Below are positions 38,292-64,000 of a DNA stretch of 64,000 bases, piece after piece. Where the stretch lies: the NCBI GenBank assembly GCA_003696155.1, contig RFFP01000017.1:104202-168201 (forward strand), given 5' to 3'. The notes under the pieces were generated by a model, which saw nothing but the letters and a program-made list of their open reading frames with translations, was not told where the DNA came from and made no database searches. This DNA comes from Acidobacteriota bacterium. Lineage in GTDB: Bacteria; Aquificota; Aquificia; Aquificales; Aquificaceae. Made by a program: the position numbers and the translations under genes. Every line of letters begins with the position of its first letter. Position 1 is the first letter of the stretch.

Positions 38292-38479
38292 CTATAAATA
38301 GTATAACTTCAACTGAGCCTGTTGAAAAACTCTCAAACCATTGACACAAGCCAGATAAAAAGGAAGATGATAGCAAGAAGAAAACAGGCAGATCCCCAAC
38401 TTACCCCAAGTAACTTATATGGATGCTCCTTTTCATAAAGTTTGCACTGAAAGTTCCTCAAGGTTTGGATAATAAGCAC

Positions 38480-38582
38480 GCTTATCATAGCCGGGATGGT
38501 GTAGGAGGTGAGTATGGTTGAGTTGATGAGGACAGGGGATATTCAGGTTAGGGGGACTCTGATAGAATTCTTGGACAGAGCA
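38480..38582 (+). repeat. 103-bp dispersed repeat, copy A (inverted relative to copy B at 58832-58934)
   Basis: Ungapped hand alignment to the reverse complement of 58832-58934 with about 13 mismatches, including GTTGATGAGGACAGGGGATA-type blocks. Confidence 0.9.
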
Positions 38583-56341: not shown

Positions 56342-56994
56342 TATATTACCTCACATGATAGGAAAAGAACCTTAAAATATGGGCGTTGAAGCCCGCTTAA
56401 CATCTTTTCAATCATCTTTCTTGAGATTATACCACCTTTGCGTACCGGGTTGTAAGAGGAACCCGTGTAGTGAAAAAACCTTACAAGGTCCCATCCGAAG
56501 AAGGGTATGTCCACAATCTCTGTAAAGGAATGCCTAAAAACCACCCTACCTCTTAGAAATTCTTCTATCTCCTCAGCCTTTGGGAAAGGAAAGCGGAGCT
56601 CTGGAAGGCTGCCATCTACAGGCACTGCACACAGAAAGAGACTTTTGCATACCCTTAAAGCCTCTTGTAAGCTCTTAGATGTATCTGTCCAGTGCAGGGC
56701 AAAGTTGCTAACCACACAGTCAAAGCTTTTGTCCTTAAAGGGAAGATAGTGCGCGTCTCCTAATACCACTTTTCCGAAGCGTGCTTTGTATACCTTTGCC
56801 ATGCCATGGGCTATATCTACACCTACCACATCAGAGAGGTTTTCACTCATAATGCCTGTACCACAACCAAGGTCAAGCACTCTCCCGCTCAGAGTTTCAA
56901 GGCTTTTGAGAATCTTGGCACATTCCCTCTGAGGAACAGCCCATTGGTCATAGCTCTTCCATGCCTTTGAGAACCTCAAAGATAAGACTTTCAT
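56341..56994 (-). CDS. bioC: Malonyl-ACP O-methyltransferase-like SAM methyltransferase
   Basis: VLDLGCGTGIMSENL, SNFALHWTDTSKSLQEALRV, VDGSLPELRFPF (BioC-like GSLPEL). Confidence 0.75.
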   Translation of the reverse strand: MKVLSLRFSKAWKSYDQWAVPQRECAKILKSLETLSGRVLDLGCGTGIMSENLSDVVGVDIAHGMAKVYKARFGKVVLGDAHYLPFKDKSFDCVVSNFALHWTDTSKSLQEALRVCKSLFLCAVPVDGSLPELRFPFPKAEEIEEFLRGRVVFRHSFTEIVDIPFFGWDLVRFFHYTGSSYNPVRKGGIISRKMIEKMLSGLQRPYFKVLFLSCEVI

Positions 56995-57568
56995 TCCTTG
57001 GAAAGTGTCCTCCTAAGAAGGGTATTAATTTAGACCTTTTTAGGAGATTGTAAAGGGAAAGGGCAGACCGGAAGGGAACTATGGGGTCCCTTATACCATG
57101 CAAGAGAAAAACCCTCTGCCTTATATTAGGGACTATGGGTTTTATGTTCAGGGTTATGTAGTCCCTTAAAAGCTTTTCCGCTCCTTCAAGTTCTATGCAG
57201 TCTTCAAACTCTCTCTCATATGCAAGCCTTCTAAAGGTCTTTAAAAATTCCGTGCCCTCCCTTTTCAGTCTAAGGATAAAACCCCTTAGGTTTCTCTCCT
57301 GCCAGTTACCACCAAAGTGCGCAGTAGCCCCTATGAGGAGCAACCCTCTAAATTTTTCTGGAAACATGTAAGCCATCATAAGCGCAAGGCTCCCACCCAT
57401 AGACCAACCTATAAGCGTAGAACCCTCTGGAGCGATTAAAGCCAGCTCTCTCGCAAGGCTCCAGGGGTCTGAGTAGCTGAGTTTACTCCTTCCATGGAAG
57501 GGTAGGTCTACAGAGGGAAAAGAGGCCAATACCTTAGAGCTAAAGCCCCAACCGTGTATGAAAAAAAG
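56948..57568 (-). CDS. BioH/BioG-like pimeloyl esterase (alpha/beta hydrolase); 5' boundary unresolved
   Basis: FFIHGWGFSSK, LIGWSMGGSLAL, LLHGIRDPIVPF, GGHFPRNES; adjacent to the bioC-like gene. No canonical start found between tRNA-Arg and HGWG. Confidence 0.7.
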   Translation of the reverse strand, partial: LFFIHGWGFSSKVLASFPSVDLPFHGRSKLSYSDPWSLARELALIAPEGSTLIGWSMGGSLALMMAYMFPEKFRGLLLIGATAHFGGNWQERNLRGFILRLKREGTEFLKTFRRLAYEREFEDCIELEGAEKLLRDYITLNIKPIVPNIRQRVFLLHGIRDPIVPFRSALSLYNLLKRSKLIPFLGGHFPRNESLIFEVLKGMEEL

Positions 57569-57642
57569 CGGGCCCGGAGGGACTCGAACCCCCGACCTAG
57601 GGATTAGAAATCCCTTGCTCTGTCCTGCTGAGCTACGGGCCC
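57569..57642 (-). tRNA. tRNA-Arg (anticodon TCT)
   Basis: GGGCCCG-TA-GCTC...GAGC-A-AGGGA-TTTCTAA-TCCCT...GGGGG-TTCGAGT-CCCTC-CGGGCCC-G folds as a cloverleaf. Confidence 0.93.
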
Positions 57643-57715
57643 TCGGGGTGGCAGGACTTGAACCTGCGGCCTTTGGCTCCCAAAGCCAACGCTCTGCCAC
57701 CTGAGCTACACCCCG
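57643..57715 (-). tRNA. tRNA-Pro (anticodon TGG)
   Basis: CGGGGTG-TA-GCTC...GAGC-G-TTGGC-TTTGGGA-GCCAA...GCAGG-TTCAAGT-CCTGC-CACCCCG-A folds as a cloverleaf. Confidence 0.93.
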
Positions 57716-58831: not shown

Positions 58832-58934
58832 TGCTCCGCCCAAGAATTCTGTTAGGGTCTCCCTGACCTGAGTATCCCCTGTCCTCATCAACTCCACCAT
58901 ACTCACTTCCTACATCATACCAGCTATGATAAGC
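58832..58934 (-). repeat. 103-bp dispersed repeat, copy B
   Basis: Reverse complement aligns ungapped with 38480-38582. Confidence 0.9.
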
Positions 58935-59002
58935 GGTGATGCTATAAGTATTTCTCCTCTCTTTACCAACTCCTTGTTATGCTGACTCCAGTTCCTGATC
59001 AT
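58910..59002 (-). pseudogene. Possible DDE-transposase N-terminal fragment
   Basis: MIRNWSQHNKELVKRGEILIASPLIIAGMM*; the NW-x-x-x-N-x-x-LV-x-RGEI pattern resembles the start of IS5-type transposases. From memory only. Confidence 0.3.
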
Positions 59003-59045
59003 GGGTATTTACTTTATCTCTAAAACCCCTTTTTAGACAAGGCAC

Positions 59046-59933
59046 TTGAATTTTATATATGGAGGTTTTTTCTATCCAGACGGGGGAGACTACGCTGAGG
59101 GTCTTTCTGTTGTTTTCCGTAAACTTATAAACATAAATATAAAAAAAGAGTCCTTAGGTAAAATAAGAGAGGAGTTTTCTAAGTTGATTAAAAGTACCGA
59201 ATACAAGCCAGAAGAAGAAGCCGAATACCACATAATGGATGTTATTTGGCAAAAACCAAGGGAGCTTTTCAGGGGTGAAAGAACTGGCACTTTTGATAGA
59301 TACAAAAAGGATGCAAAGTTTGATATAATAGCTGGTATTGTTTCAACAGCGGGTGAGATAAGCAAAAGGGTTGGGCTTGCCTTTCTTAGGCTACTCATAG
59401 CGGGAGAAGTTGAGCGGATAGACAAACAGCAGATGTGGGATTGCAGAAAAACGATGGTTGAGCTTTGGAAAGATATGACAAAGGACAAGGAAATAGAGAA
59501 ACACCTTGAAAATGTGCTTATGTTTGAAAGAGTGGTAGAAGAATGGACTACAAAGGATGCTATTACAAACATAGCCATAAAACCTGCAAATGTGGAGGGC
59601 GACCGGTTTAAACTTCCTGATAATGAGCAGTTTTATCACTCAGCCCTGCAAGTGTTTTCAACAGAAGGTCCAGGCTGGGAAAGGGATGAGGTATACTCAG
59701 AAAAAAGAAGCCTTTTCCTGCTCGCTCTTTTGGCTCTTTCCAACTACGAAAGCGAATCTTTTATAACACCATACGCAAAGCTGGGGCTTTGGCAAAGGAA
59801 AAAGAATATATACCTAAAGCTCAGAAGGGATAATAGAGAGTACACAATGGGACTAAGCGGAGTGCTATACGAACTTCTATACTTAGCAAGCAGGATACCC
59901 GGCCACTATAAGCAATTTGAAGACCAAGAGTAG
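59046..59933 (+). CDS. Hypothetical protein, first gene of candidate defence operon
   Basis: 295 aa from TTG with an in-frame TAG five codons upstream; 2 nt from the helicase ORF. No family recognised. Confidence 0.65.
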   Translation: MNFIYGGFFYPDGGDYAEGLSVVFRKLININIKKESLGKIREEFSKLIKSTEYKPEEEAEYHIMDVIWQKPRELFRGERTGTFDRYKKDAKFDIIAGIVSTAGEISKRVGLAFLRLLIAGEVERIDKQQMWDCRKTMVELWKDMTKDKEIEKHLENVLMFERVVEEWTTKDAITNIAIKPANVEGDRFKLPDNEQFYHSALQVFSTEGPGWERDEVYSEKRSLFLLALLALSNYESESFITPYAKLGLWQRKKNIYLKLRRDNREYTMGLSGVLYELLYLASRIPGHYKQFEDQE

Positions 59934-59935
59934 TC

Positions 59936-62900
59936 ATGTTTATAACCAATCAAGAGGAAAAGGAATTTAGTAAAAGGCTTAAAGAAATAATAGAACACAG
60001 CCAAGAGCTTAAATTTTTGGTGGGTTTTTTCTACTTTTCTGGGCTTGACACTCTTTACGAAACACTAAGGAAAATGGATGAAGAAGGCAAGCTAAAGGAA
60101 GGCTTTATGAAGGTGCTTGTGGGCTTATATGTGGATAGAGGTGTTTATGGAATTTATGAGGGAGCAAATAAGATAAAGGAGATAGAAAACACAAAAATAA
60201 AAAAAGAGTTTTTAGATGCTATTGAAAAGGCTTTCACTTCAGAAGAGCTTGACAGAAAAGAAGTTTATGAGCAAGTGGAGTTTTTTATAAAACTTCTTAA
60301 GGAAGGTAAGCTTGTTATAAGAAAAACAAAGGAACCTAACCATGCAAAGCTTTATATATTTAAAATGGCAGAAAACGAAAAAAGCTTACTCCACGGTCTT
60401 TTCATAACAGGTAGTAGCAACCTTACAAAGGCAGGTCTTAGCCTTCAAAAGGAGTTTAATGTAGAGATAAAGGACTATGGACTTGCGGAAGCAGAAAATT
60501 ATTTTGACGAATTTTGGGAAACAGCGGTTGAGCTTTCGCCAGAAGATATTGTTAAAACCTTTAAGGAGAAGACCTTTATCAGAGAGGTTTCACCCTTTGA
60601 AGCTTATGCGTATCTTTTAAAGACTTACTTAGACCTTCATCAGGGGCATTATCCTATTGATGAGCTAAAAAGACTTATGGAAAAGAAGGGCTACAAGCCT
60701 TATGACTATCAGCTTAGTGCGGTTTCTCAGGCTGTGGCAAATTGCTTTGCTCACGGAGGCTCTATAATTGCGGATGTGGTAGGACTCGGAAAAACGGTCA
60801 TAGCTTGCCTTACCGCAAAAGCCTTGGGAAGGAGAGGAATAGTTATATGCCCGCCACACCTTGTGGGAGATGAGACAAAGTCTTCTGGTTGGAAAAAATA
60901 CTTAGAAGACTTTGAGCTTTTTGGCTGGGAGGTGTTTTCCGTAGGAAGGCTTGAGGATACTTTAAAGTTTGTAAGAGAACGCCCGGATATTGAGGTGGTA
61001 ATAGTGGATGAGGCTCACCGATTTAGAAACGAAAGGACACAAAGCTACACCTACCTTAGGGAAATATGCAGAGGGAAAACTGTCCTTTTACTTTCTGCAA
61101 CACCCTTTAACAACAAACCATCAGACATATTTGCCCTTCTAAAGCTTTTTACCATTCCCAAAAAGTCCACCATAGTTTATGACCAAGACCTTGAGTCAAG
61201 ATTTTCCGCTTACGAGGCAGAGTTTAGCAAACTTGCTCACATAAAAAAGAACTACAAATCTTATGACGAAAAACGAAGAGAAAGAGCTTTGAGATACTAC
61301 AAAGAAATATTTTCAGAAAACAAAAGCACACTTTTGGAAGAAAGTATTGAAAAAGTCAGGCAAAAAGCCAAAAGCCTTGCAAGAGAAATAAAGGCAGTTC
61401 TTGAGCCTGTGGTCATAAGAAGGAACAGGTTAGACCTTAAATACTTCAAAGACAGTGAAAATATAGAGTTTTCGGAAGTAAAAGACCCAAAAGAAGTCTT
61501 TTTTGAGCTTACAAAAGAGCAAAGCGAATTTTATGACGAGGTCATAAAAGCTTTTTATTCTTCGGAAGAAGGAGGAAGGTTTAAAGGAGCCATATACCTT
61601 CCTGAGTTTTACGAGAAGGGAATACCAATTGACCAAGAAGTTAGCCAAGAAGAAATAGGTTCAGCATCTCAAGAGGAGCAGTTTTTAAGACTTTTCCAGA
61701 AAAACCTGTATGACCTAATGAGAAGGCACATTGTAAAAAGGTTTGAGAGTAGTTTTGGAGCTTTTTACGAGACACTTAAAAACTTTAAAGAAACATACGA
61801 AAATGTGCGTAGGTTTATAGAAGACACAGATACTTTTATATACGACAGAAAGAAACTTGAAAAGCTTTTAGAAGAGTTTGAGGATAATCCAGATGGATTA
61901 AAACAGGCGCTTGAAGAATACGCAAAAACTCTTGAACAAGAGGCAAAAAACAACCGCTACGCTAAGGTATATGAAATTAAAAGTTTTAAGAAAAGGAAGG
62001 CGTTTTTAGAGGATATAAAATCGGACATAAAGCTTTTTGATGAGTTTATTAAAAAAGTAGAGAAGCTAAAGCTTTTGGAAAATGACCCAAAGGCTGGAAA
62101 GCTCATAGAAGAAGTAAAGGAGTTTTTAGAAGATGGCAGGAAGGTGGTGATATTCAGTGAGTATGCGGATACGGTGGAATATCTAAAGGGCATTCTTGAA
62201 GAAGCTTTTCCAAACCAAGTACTTACTGCTTATGGAAGTTTAAGCAAAGAAAAGGTTTTTAAAATTTATAAAAACTTTGACGCACAGTATAAGGAGCAGG
62301 AAGATGAGTATAAAATTCTTTTGACTACGGACAAGCTTTCGGAAGGCATAAACCTAAACAGGGCTGGTGTGGTTATAAATTACGATATACCCTGGAACCC
62401 GGTAAGAGTTATCCAAAGGCTTGGTCGTATAAACCGCATAGGCAAAAAGGTCTATGAAGAAATTTACATTCTTAACTTTTTCCCTACAGAAAAGGGAGCA
62501 GACCATGTAAGGTCAAGAGAAATAGCCCAGACAAAGATGTTTATGATACACAATGTCCTTGGTGAGGATGCCAAAATATTCAGTCCTGACGAGGAGCCAC
62601 AAGCTTCAGAACTATACAGAAGACTAACAAGCCTTCAAGATGCAGAAGAAGAAAGCTTTTACACAAAGGTCAAAAGGGAGTTTGAAAGGATAAAAAAAGA
62701 ACATCCGAATGTGTTAAAAAACATTGAAAACATGCCACGCAGAATAAAAATAGCAAAGGAGGGAGAAAGAGACGAGCTTGTGGTTTTCATACTAAAAGGC
62801 AAAGACCTTTTTGTAGGATACCATGACTACAAAAGCAAAGCACCGCATGTAAAGACCTTTGAAGAAGTTTTTGAGAAGATAAAAGCGGAGCCTTCAGACA

Positions 62901-63298
62901 AAAACTTGCCTTTTAGCGAAAACTTTTGGAAGAGCTACGAAAGAATACTTAAGAAAGACTTTGAAAGAAAACTCAAAAACTCAAAAACTTTAAACAGCAA
63001 CCTTGAAAAGGCATACAGAGTTCTTAATGACCTTATGTCCCAAAAGCAAGAAGACCAAAAGTTTATCTCAGAGCTTATTTATGACATAAGATACTATCAT
63101 ACCCTTCCAGAGGAGATAATAGCACGCATATCAAAGCTTGAAGGTCAAAGTATAGAAAATATCATTCAAGAGCTTAGGAAGATAAAAGAGCTTTTGGGAG
63201 AGGACTTTTTGAAAAGGACAGAGGCAAAGCTAAGGACAGAGGAGGAAGATGTTATAATAGCAGTAGAAAACAGGGCGTTTGGAAGCACTCATGGTTAA
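59936..63298 (+). CDS. SNF2/DEAD-type helicase with N-terminal PLD-like nuclease domain
   Basis: PLD-like NHAKLYIF...GSSNLTKAGL; helicase GLGKTVIA, VDEAHRFRN, LLLSATPFNN, RVIQRLGRINRIGK. Confidence 0.9.
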   Translation: MFITNQEEKEFSKRLKEIIEHSQELKFLVGFFYFSGLDTLYETLRKMDEEGKLKEGFMKVLVGLYVDRGVYGIYEGANKIKEIENTKIKKEFLDAIEKAFTSEELDRKEVYEQVEFFIKLLKEGKLVIRKTKEPNHAKLYIFKMAENEKSLLHGLFITGSSNLTKAGLSLQKEFNVEIKDYGLAEAENYFDEFWETAVELSPEDIVKTFKEKTFIREVSPFEAYAYLLKTYLDLHQGHYPIDELKRLMEKKGYKPYDYQLSAVSQAVANCFAHGGSIIADVVGLGKTVIACLTAKALGRRGIVICPPHLVGDETKSSGWKKYLEDFELFGWEVFSVGRLEDTLKFVRERPDIEVVIVDEAHRFRNERTQSYTYLREICRGKTVLLLSATPFNNKPSDIFALLKLFTIPKKSTIVYDQDLESRFSAYEAEFSKLAHIKKNYKSYDEKRRERALRYYKEIFSENKSTLLEESIEKVRQKAKSLAREIKAVLEPVVIRRNRLDLKYFKDSENIEFSEVKDPKEVFFELTKEQSEFYDEVIKAFYSSEEGGRFKGAIYLPEFYEKGIPIDQEVSQEEIGSASQEEQFLRLFQKNLYDLMRRHIVKRFESSFGAFYETLKNFKETYENVRRFIEDTDTFIYDRKKLEKLLEEFEDNPDGLKQALEEYAKTLEQEAKNNRYAKVYEIKSFKKRKAFLEDIKSDIKLFDEFIKKVEKLKLLENDPKAGKLIEEVKEFLEDGRKVVIFSEYADTVEYLKGILEEAFPNQVLTAYGSLSKEKVFKIYKNFDAQYKEQEDEYKILLTTDKLSEGINLNRAGVVINYDIPWNPVRVIQRLGRINRIGKKVYEEIYILNFFPTEKGADHVRSREIAQTKMFMIHNVLGEDAKIFSPDEEPQASELYRRLTSLQDAEEESFYTKVKREFERIKKEHPNVLKNIENMPRRIKIAKEGERDELVVFILKGKDLFVGYHDYKSKAPHVKTFEEVFEKIKAEPSDKNLPFSENFWKSYERILKKDFERKLKNSKTLNSNLEKAYRVLNDLMSQKQEDQKFISELIYDIRYYHTLPEEIIARISKLEGQSIENIIQELRKIKELLGEDFLKRTEAKLRTEEEDVIIAVENRAFGSTHG

Positions 63299-64000
63299 AG
63301 ACAGGCTTTATAGAAAAATTGAAGAGCTTGTGCAAAACTTCTCCGAAGAGACCTTAAGAGATGTTTTTGAGAGAAAGTTTAAACAAGTAGAGCGAACAGA
63401 AAAAAGGCTTTATGAATACGAAAACCAACAATTTAAAGAGGTTAAAGAACTACTTAAGGTAGAGCTTGGGAGTCATCTTCATCTTCTTAAAGTATATGCC
63501 ATAAAAACAAACGGAGAGCTTTCTGAAAGGTCAAGCAAAAGAAAACAGTTTGACCTTGCTAAAAATGTCTTAAGGAGTGAGACAGGGCTTGATGTAGGGC
63601 TTTTTGCTTTTTACGATGATAATGGAAACTTCAGACTCTCCCTGGTGTATAAGGTTTACAAAGAAAGAAAAACAGGATTTAGCCATTACAAAAGGCACAC
63701 TTACTTTGTTAAAAAGGGGAAGCCTTACAGGACTTTTCTTAAGGCAATTTATGAAGGGGACTTTTCAAGCCTTGAAGGTATTATATCTGCTTTTTCAACA
63801 CAGCCTTTAACAAAGGAGTTTTACACAGAAATTCAAAACTGGTATGCGTGGGCGTTAAAGCATGTTTGGTTCCCTGGAGGTATTCCTGAAGAAAATCTTA
63901 TAAGGCTTCTTACAAGGCTTATATTTGTTTGGTTTTTGAAAGAAAAAGGTCTAATCCCAGAGAAGATTTTTGATGAAGAGTTTTTAAAAGGTGTGGTAAA
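63291..64000 (+). CDS. N-terminus of Eco57I-type DNA methyltransferase / restriction-modification enzyme, runs off window
   Basis: ATG at 63291 overlaps the helicase stop by 8 nt and the frame stays open to 64000. MVKDRLYRKIEELVQNFSEETLRDVFERKF...FSTQPLTKEFYTEIQNWYAWALKHVW...RLIFVWFLKEKGLIPEKIFDEEFL resembles the region upstream of the Eco57I methylase domain. Confidence 0.65.
   Translation, partial: MVKDRLYRKIEELVQNFSEETLRDVFERKFKQVERTEKRLYEYENQQFKEVKELLKVELGSHLHLLKVYAIKTNGELSERSSKRKQFDLAKNVLRSETGLDVGLFAFYDDNGNFRLSLVYKVYKERKTGFSHYKRHTYFVKKGKPYRTFLKAIYEGDFSSLEGIISAFSTQPLTKEFYTEIQNWYAWALKHVWFPGGIPEENLIRLLTRLIFVWFLKEKGLIPEKIFDEEFLKGVV

Follow-up and report, generated by a model that had tools for sequence, protein, structure and literature searches.

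The right-hand end of the window (the whole 64,000-nucleotide stretch of DNA that we analysed) carries three closely packed genes, and the question is whether these form a single defence operon and, if so, what its first gene is. A sequence-only reading had described three co-oriented, touching or overlapping ORFs, AT-richer than their flank and next to mobile-element debris, and had proposed a restriction-like system that begins with ORF1, an unrecognised component. The layout held up on translation and by coordinates, as all three ORFs lie on the plus strand within 59046-64000. ORF1 (59046-59933, TTG start) encodes 295 residues, and a two-base gap separates its stop codon from the start of ORF2 (59936-63298), which encodes a PLD-SNF2 helicase of 1120 residues. 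ORF3 (63291-64000) starts at a TTG at 63279 or, likelier, at an ATG at 63291, giving an 8-nt overlap with ORF2, and comprises the N-terminal ~236 residues of an Eco57I/type IIG-like adenine methyltransferase. The contig ends exactly at window position 64000, and ORF3 is therefore cut by the assembly and not by the window alone. The composition was also as described, with GC dropping at 59 kb from 45-49% in the 53-59 kb flank to 36-39% across the three ORFs; the 38-48 kb part of the window is likewise lower in GC (40-45%).

The neighbouring debris proved to be a MITE-like dispersed repeat of ~213 bp (58832-59044, with no strand assigned) that ends 1 nt before ORF1. An alignment of 10 copies showed imperfect 12-15-bp TIRs with the consensus TGCTCTGTCCAA... 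/ ...TTGGACAAGGCA, and the minus strand of the repeat encodes a transposase-like N-terminal fragment (NWSQHNKELVKRGEILI...). Used as a probe, the repeat matched 17 places in its own genome, full-length and partial, at about 77-97% identity to the window copy; the matched places include one within the window at 38479-38582 and others on other contigs. No target duplication was evident at the repeat copies, and no RNA structure or other RNA was found in the repeat. In the flank upstream of it, the 250-aa ORF called at 56948-57700 overruns tRNA-Arg and tRNA-Pro genes (57568-57715), and its true start is probably farther downstream.

ORF1 and the intact c0 family

ORF1 had no meaningful family match in Pfam, NCBIfam, PADLOC or PHROGs; PADLOC matches to PDC-S05 and Cas8b (E ~0.02) were treated as noise. 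Its relatives, found only in Aquificota, are ~770-845 residues long and make up a family of ~790-residue proteins that we designated c0. Pairwise alignment with the c0 protein of locus L015 (genome G026) showed that residues 1-174 of ORF1 correspond to c0 residues 26-198 and residues 175-295 to c0 residues 669-790. The 5' part of ORF1 (59046-59567, plus strand) is thus missing the native first ~25 codons, the 3' part (59568-59933, plus strand) corresponds to the C-terminal part of a predicted PIWI domain, and the intervening ~470 residues (c0 199-668) have been deleted in frame.

The intact c0 genes, which we found in hot-spring bacteria of the Aquificota only and directly after a gene we designated c1, likewise matched nothing meaningful in Pfam, NCBIfam, PADLOC or PHROGs. 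An AlphaFold2 model of c0 from a 4-sequence alignment had a mean pLDDT of 58.3 and a pTM of 0.47, with the best blocks at pLDDT 80-92. In a Foldseek search of the PDB with this model (pLDDT 58), 28 of 28 matches at E≤0.001 were to Argonaute/PIWI proteins (probability 0.99-1.00; sequence identity 7-11%), the best being to a SPARTA short pAgo, and a search of viral proteins gave no match at E≤0.001. Profile-profile comparison of c0 with Aquificota pAgos gave no signal, and Pfam Piwi (PF02171) matched none of 10 c0 members or two divergent copies; its matches at 15 other places in the phylum included no c0 gene. Because the sequence-profile comparison with pAgos fails, the Argonaute assignment rests on predicted structure. 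In our reading of the alignment, the predicted MID region has an invariant QT and a KN..(I)SL.K.. segment. At the end of the first predicted PIWI strand, c0 has an invariant E in place of the D of active Argonautes. Intact c0 is predicted to have a divergent Argonaute (MID-PIWI) fold and no obvious catalytic tetrad.

The low confidence of the model and the absent profile support leave some room for the view that c0 is no relative of Argonaute and that Foldseek was misled by RNase H/Rossmann-like elements in a weak model. However, we consider this unlikely, given that every significant PDB match is to Argonaute/PIWI proteins, at probabilities near one and with a short pAgo scoring best, that the conserved QT and KN..SL.K segments sit at MID-like positions, that the viral library gave no significant match, and that the partner of c0 (c1, see below) is a predicted nuclease-helicase, as in ApsAB and DdmDE.

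Since the predicted MID and most of PIWI are deleted in frame, ORF1 is not expected to work as an Argonaute, and the window copy is probably a dead, decayed stump of c0. Counted by leave-one-out, the changes at conserved residues (5/41 in ORF1 and 0-5 in relatives) are suggestive of relaxed constraint, and c1 is absent from the genome that carries ORF1. On this account the loss would have taken c1 together with the start of c0, as far as the MITE-like repeat. Either the in-frame deletion or the ORF1-ORF2 junction could be an assembly error, and ORF1, still an open frame of 295 codons, could be expressed. It might even be a functional miniature derivative of c0, kept by selection in a new role such as an inhibitor or adaptor, as the deletion is in frame, 298 codons run without a stop, and the retained parts keep most conserved residues, with 73% identity to the G026 copy in the C-terminal part. 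We think this improbable, however, as the short form is unique to this genome, its native start was lost at the repeat, the predicted guide-binding MID and PIWI core is gone, and its changes at conserved residues exceed those of nearly all relatives.

The helicase-methylase pair

ORF2 matched the Pfam families PLDc_2, SNF2-rel_dom and Helicase_C. Its N-terminal PLD domain has a single HKD motif on the plus strand, with HxK (HAKLYIF) at nt 60341 and GSSN near nt 60410, and the SNF2/SF2 helicase motifs follow on the same strand (Walker A at nt 60764, DEAH at 60998, SAT at 61085 and motif VI at 62414). The HxK and the helicase motifs had been noted before, and a motif comparison found all of these motifs conserved against 20 relatives; changed conserved residues (5/203) were inside the range of the relatives. 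These relatives come from about 20 Aquificota genomes and are about 50-65% identical to ORF2 across most of its length; other genomes have remoter ones.

The first ~240 residues of ORF3 matched the N-termini of ~1090-1230-residue proteins encoded beside ORF2-like helicases. The full-length relatives matched Pfam Eco57I with E-values of 1e-44 to 1e-47, had N6_Mtase and TaqI_C domains, and carried a DPAxGSG motif and an NPPY core (NPPH in one); their best PADLOC models were REase_MTase_IIG. The Eco57I domain, NPPY and TaqI_C that mark a type II/IIG-like enzyme are thus present in the relatives, and the window copy is cut before this region: the NPPY core lies at residue ~720 in the relatives and so falls outside the window. 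The proposed Eco57I-type assignment therefore stands through these relatives and is not directly visible in the window. The remainder of the methylase was not found on any contig of its own genome.

In the Aquificota loci examined, the helicase and methylase genes were adjacent or nearly so. Clustering of neighbours at 20 relative loci with flanks identified no third conserved gene, the neighbours being unrelated housekeeping or hypothetical genes. Similar adjacent pairs occur on a Parabacteroides plasmid and on the 15-kb Lactococcus plasmid pJM1F (L105:5131-9936), and in Thermales, cyanobacteria and haloarchaea remoter helicases have other methylases nearby. The pJM1F pair is adjoined by a separate TaqI_C specificity gene and an Mpi-type DNA invertase, making phase-variable specificity possible. 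In several genomes (L053, L063 and G042:C10) helicase-methylase pairs have in-frame stops or are remnants, which suggests frequent inactivation of the module.

We infer, with good support, that ORF2 and ORF3 constitute a self-contained two-gene restriction-modification-like module, whose mechanism we read from domain content. The methylase, with its TaqI_C-type specificity domain, would mark host DNA by adenine methylation, and the PLD-SNF2 protein, whose domains are seen directly, would be an ATP-driven translocase-nuclease attacking unmarked DNA. The pair resembles known systems in part. BREX-related type 2/Hma systems likewise pair an HKD-SNF2 helicase with an N6-adenine methylase (PMC12839542); unlike these, the ORF2-type loci had no DUF499-sized ATPase and no conserved DUF3780-like neighbour (20 loci). 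Type IIG (Eco57I-like) enzymes share with the ORF3 relatives the best PADLOC model and the TaqI_C specificity domain, but ORF3 is coupled to a separate PLD-SNF2 protein and an ExK nuclease motif is not evident in the conserved N-terminal region of its relatives.

Could the contig end have truncated a larger known system, such as class 1 DISARM, BREX-related type 2/Hma, BREX type 3 or ARMADA? The best named matches of ORF2 (DrmD, BrxH, HmaA and DpdE) and the helicase-methylase pairing of BREX-related type 2 point that way, but ORF2 scored far under the NCBIfam cut-offs (170 vs 610 bits for DrmD), and among the 20 relatives with flanks there was no conserved third family of DrmA/B, DUF499 or PglZ size, leaving little likelihood of a truncated larger system. 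Specifically, drmA and drmB of class 1 DISARM were not seen as conserved neighbours in the 20 relative loci, and neighbour clustering found no conserved large ATPase there like the DUF499 ATPase of Hma. Given the low scores and the lack of third genes, we rejected membership of ORF2-ORF3 in DISARM, BREX type 3 or Hma.

The restriction-like character proposed at the outset thus applies, as a reading of domain content, to ORF2 and ORF3 and does not extend to three genes as one system. That ORF1 works with the helicase and methylase in one three-gene anti-phage system, as the two-base gap, shared strand and similarly low GC might suggest, is highly improbable and was rejected as contradicted by gene neighbourhoods: ORF1 is a c0 copy lacking its start and an internal part, c0 goes with c1 in other genomes and lies directly upstream of the helicase at 0 of 20 helicase-pair loci, where the pair occurs without it, and in G039, where the two modules share a region, other genes lie between them. 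The locus very probably consists of a two-gene restriction-like module (ORF2 and ORF3) beside a decayed c0 stump derived from an unrelated c1-c0 module.

The c1-c0 pair

The c1 protein (~1015 residues) is an SF2 helicase with a predicted N-terminal PD-(D/E)XK nuclease. Its SF2 motifs read HSAGSGKT, LDEF, SRGLD and QAISRARGD; sequence searches matched it to Helicase_C, DEAD and Cas3-like models, not to DinG, and a Foldseek search returned SF2 helicases, with one DinG structure among many. The N-terminal domain has invariant NADL, VDFK and QxxxY, an order that we take to be typical of RecB/Cas4-type PD-(D/E)XK nucleases, and at the motif level it is predicted to be a nuclease of this RecB/Cas4-like QxxxY kind.

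We identified c1 in 19 other Aquificota genomes. The next gene after c1 was c0 at all loci examined but that of G038, where the two are on separate contigs. These loci include three divergent c1-c0 pairs in other genera of the phylum (L123:3262-8618, L124:4832-10476 and L125:1-3809), which would be of use in deeper alignments. In G054 (Thermocrinis sp. Bin P10; L017/L076) c1 is broken into separate frames and so is c0, which may be a second, apparently decaying copy or a sequencing error. Neither gene was found on plasmids, and c1 was not found in viral contigs. At L015, csm1 begins 8 nt after c1-c0, and csm2, csm3, csm4, csm5 and a cas6 match just under the cut-off come next; this type III-A csm1-5/cas6 operon (L015:561-7032) apparently forms one transcription unit with c1-c0, and no CRISPR array was found in the flanks of L015 examined. 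In G039, c1-c0 has the helicase-methylase pair upstream of it, in the same orientation. The csm neighbourhood and the helicase-methylase neighbour fit a defence role for c1-c0.

The known systems closest in description pair a nuclease-helicase with an Argonaute-like protein. ApsAB, a plasmid-destabilising system of E. coli that is reported from proteobacteria and cyanobacteria, consists of a nuclease/helicase and an Argonaute-like partner identified as such only through its structure, and islands contain some partly deleted copies of it (PMC11096173). Set against ApsAB by description, c1-c0 is similarly a two-gene operon of a nuclease/helicase and an Argonaute-like protein found via structure prediction, again with partly deleted copies. 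However, the PD-(D/E)XK domain is C-terminal in ApsA and N-terminal in c1, ApsB keeps the MID residues Y..K..Q..K whereas c0 keeps the Q and K positions with no evident Y3K, and c1-c0 was found here only in Aquificota. DdmDE, the anti-plasmid system of Vibrio cholerae and counterpart of ApsAB, likewise joins a helicase-nuclease to a catalytically inactive Argonaute-like sensor; DdmD and DdmE were not among the PDB sequence matches of the c1 and c0 profiles, nor in the top 50 fold matches. The pPIWI-RE triads have the order REase-DinG-PIWI (PMC3702460). The c1-c0 pair shares with them the order REase, SF2 helicase, PIWI-like protein and a patchy distribution, but its REase and helicase are fused in c1 and the helicase is not recognisably DinG; RNaseH_pPIWI_RE (PF13032) gave no match above the cut-off in the phylum.

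As in an ApsAB/DdmDE operon, c1-c0 unites an SF2 helicase-nuclease with an Argonaute-like gene, the nuclease being recognised by motif and the Argonaute by predicted structure only. We call it a variant on the ApsAB/DdmDE/pPIWI-RE theme because it is similar on paper, although it fails the pPIWI-RE and classical Piwi sequence tests, has no detectable homology to DdmDE in the PDB searches, and carries its nuclease at the opposite end from ApsA. In c1-c0 we seem to have an analogue of ApsAB, DdmDE and the pPIWI-RE triads that has diverged and undergone permutation. By analogy with ApsAB and DdmDE, c0 would act as a sensor that carries a guide and brings in or activates c1, which would then unwind and cut invading DNA. 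Searches of open-licence papers turned up no previous account of a pair of this kind in Aquificota. On balance we favour the view that c1-c0 is an undescribed family of guided defence systems, so far seen in Aquificota alone, and a strict operon of an Argonaute-fold protein and an N-terminal PD-(D/E)XK nuclease-SF2 helicase that is a domain-permuted counterpart of ApsAB/DdmDE, present in the window as a decaying copy.

At the locus itself, the lesson is that what seems to be an unknown gene at the head of a defence operon can turn out to be the remnant of an adjacent system, and the interest lies in the family that the window copy exposed and not in that copy. If our reading of c1-c0 is correct, there would be a further, highly diverged thermophile branch of nuclease-helicase and Argonaute-like operons besides DdmDE, ApsAB and pPIWI-RE, one in which the nuclease has switched ends on the motor protein. 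As thermophile proteins, c0 and c1 may be easier to solve, and would let the guide use of inactive Argonautes and the switching of their helicase-nuclease partners be tested directly.
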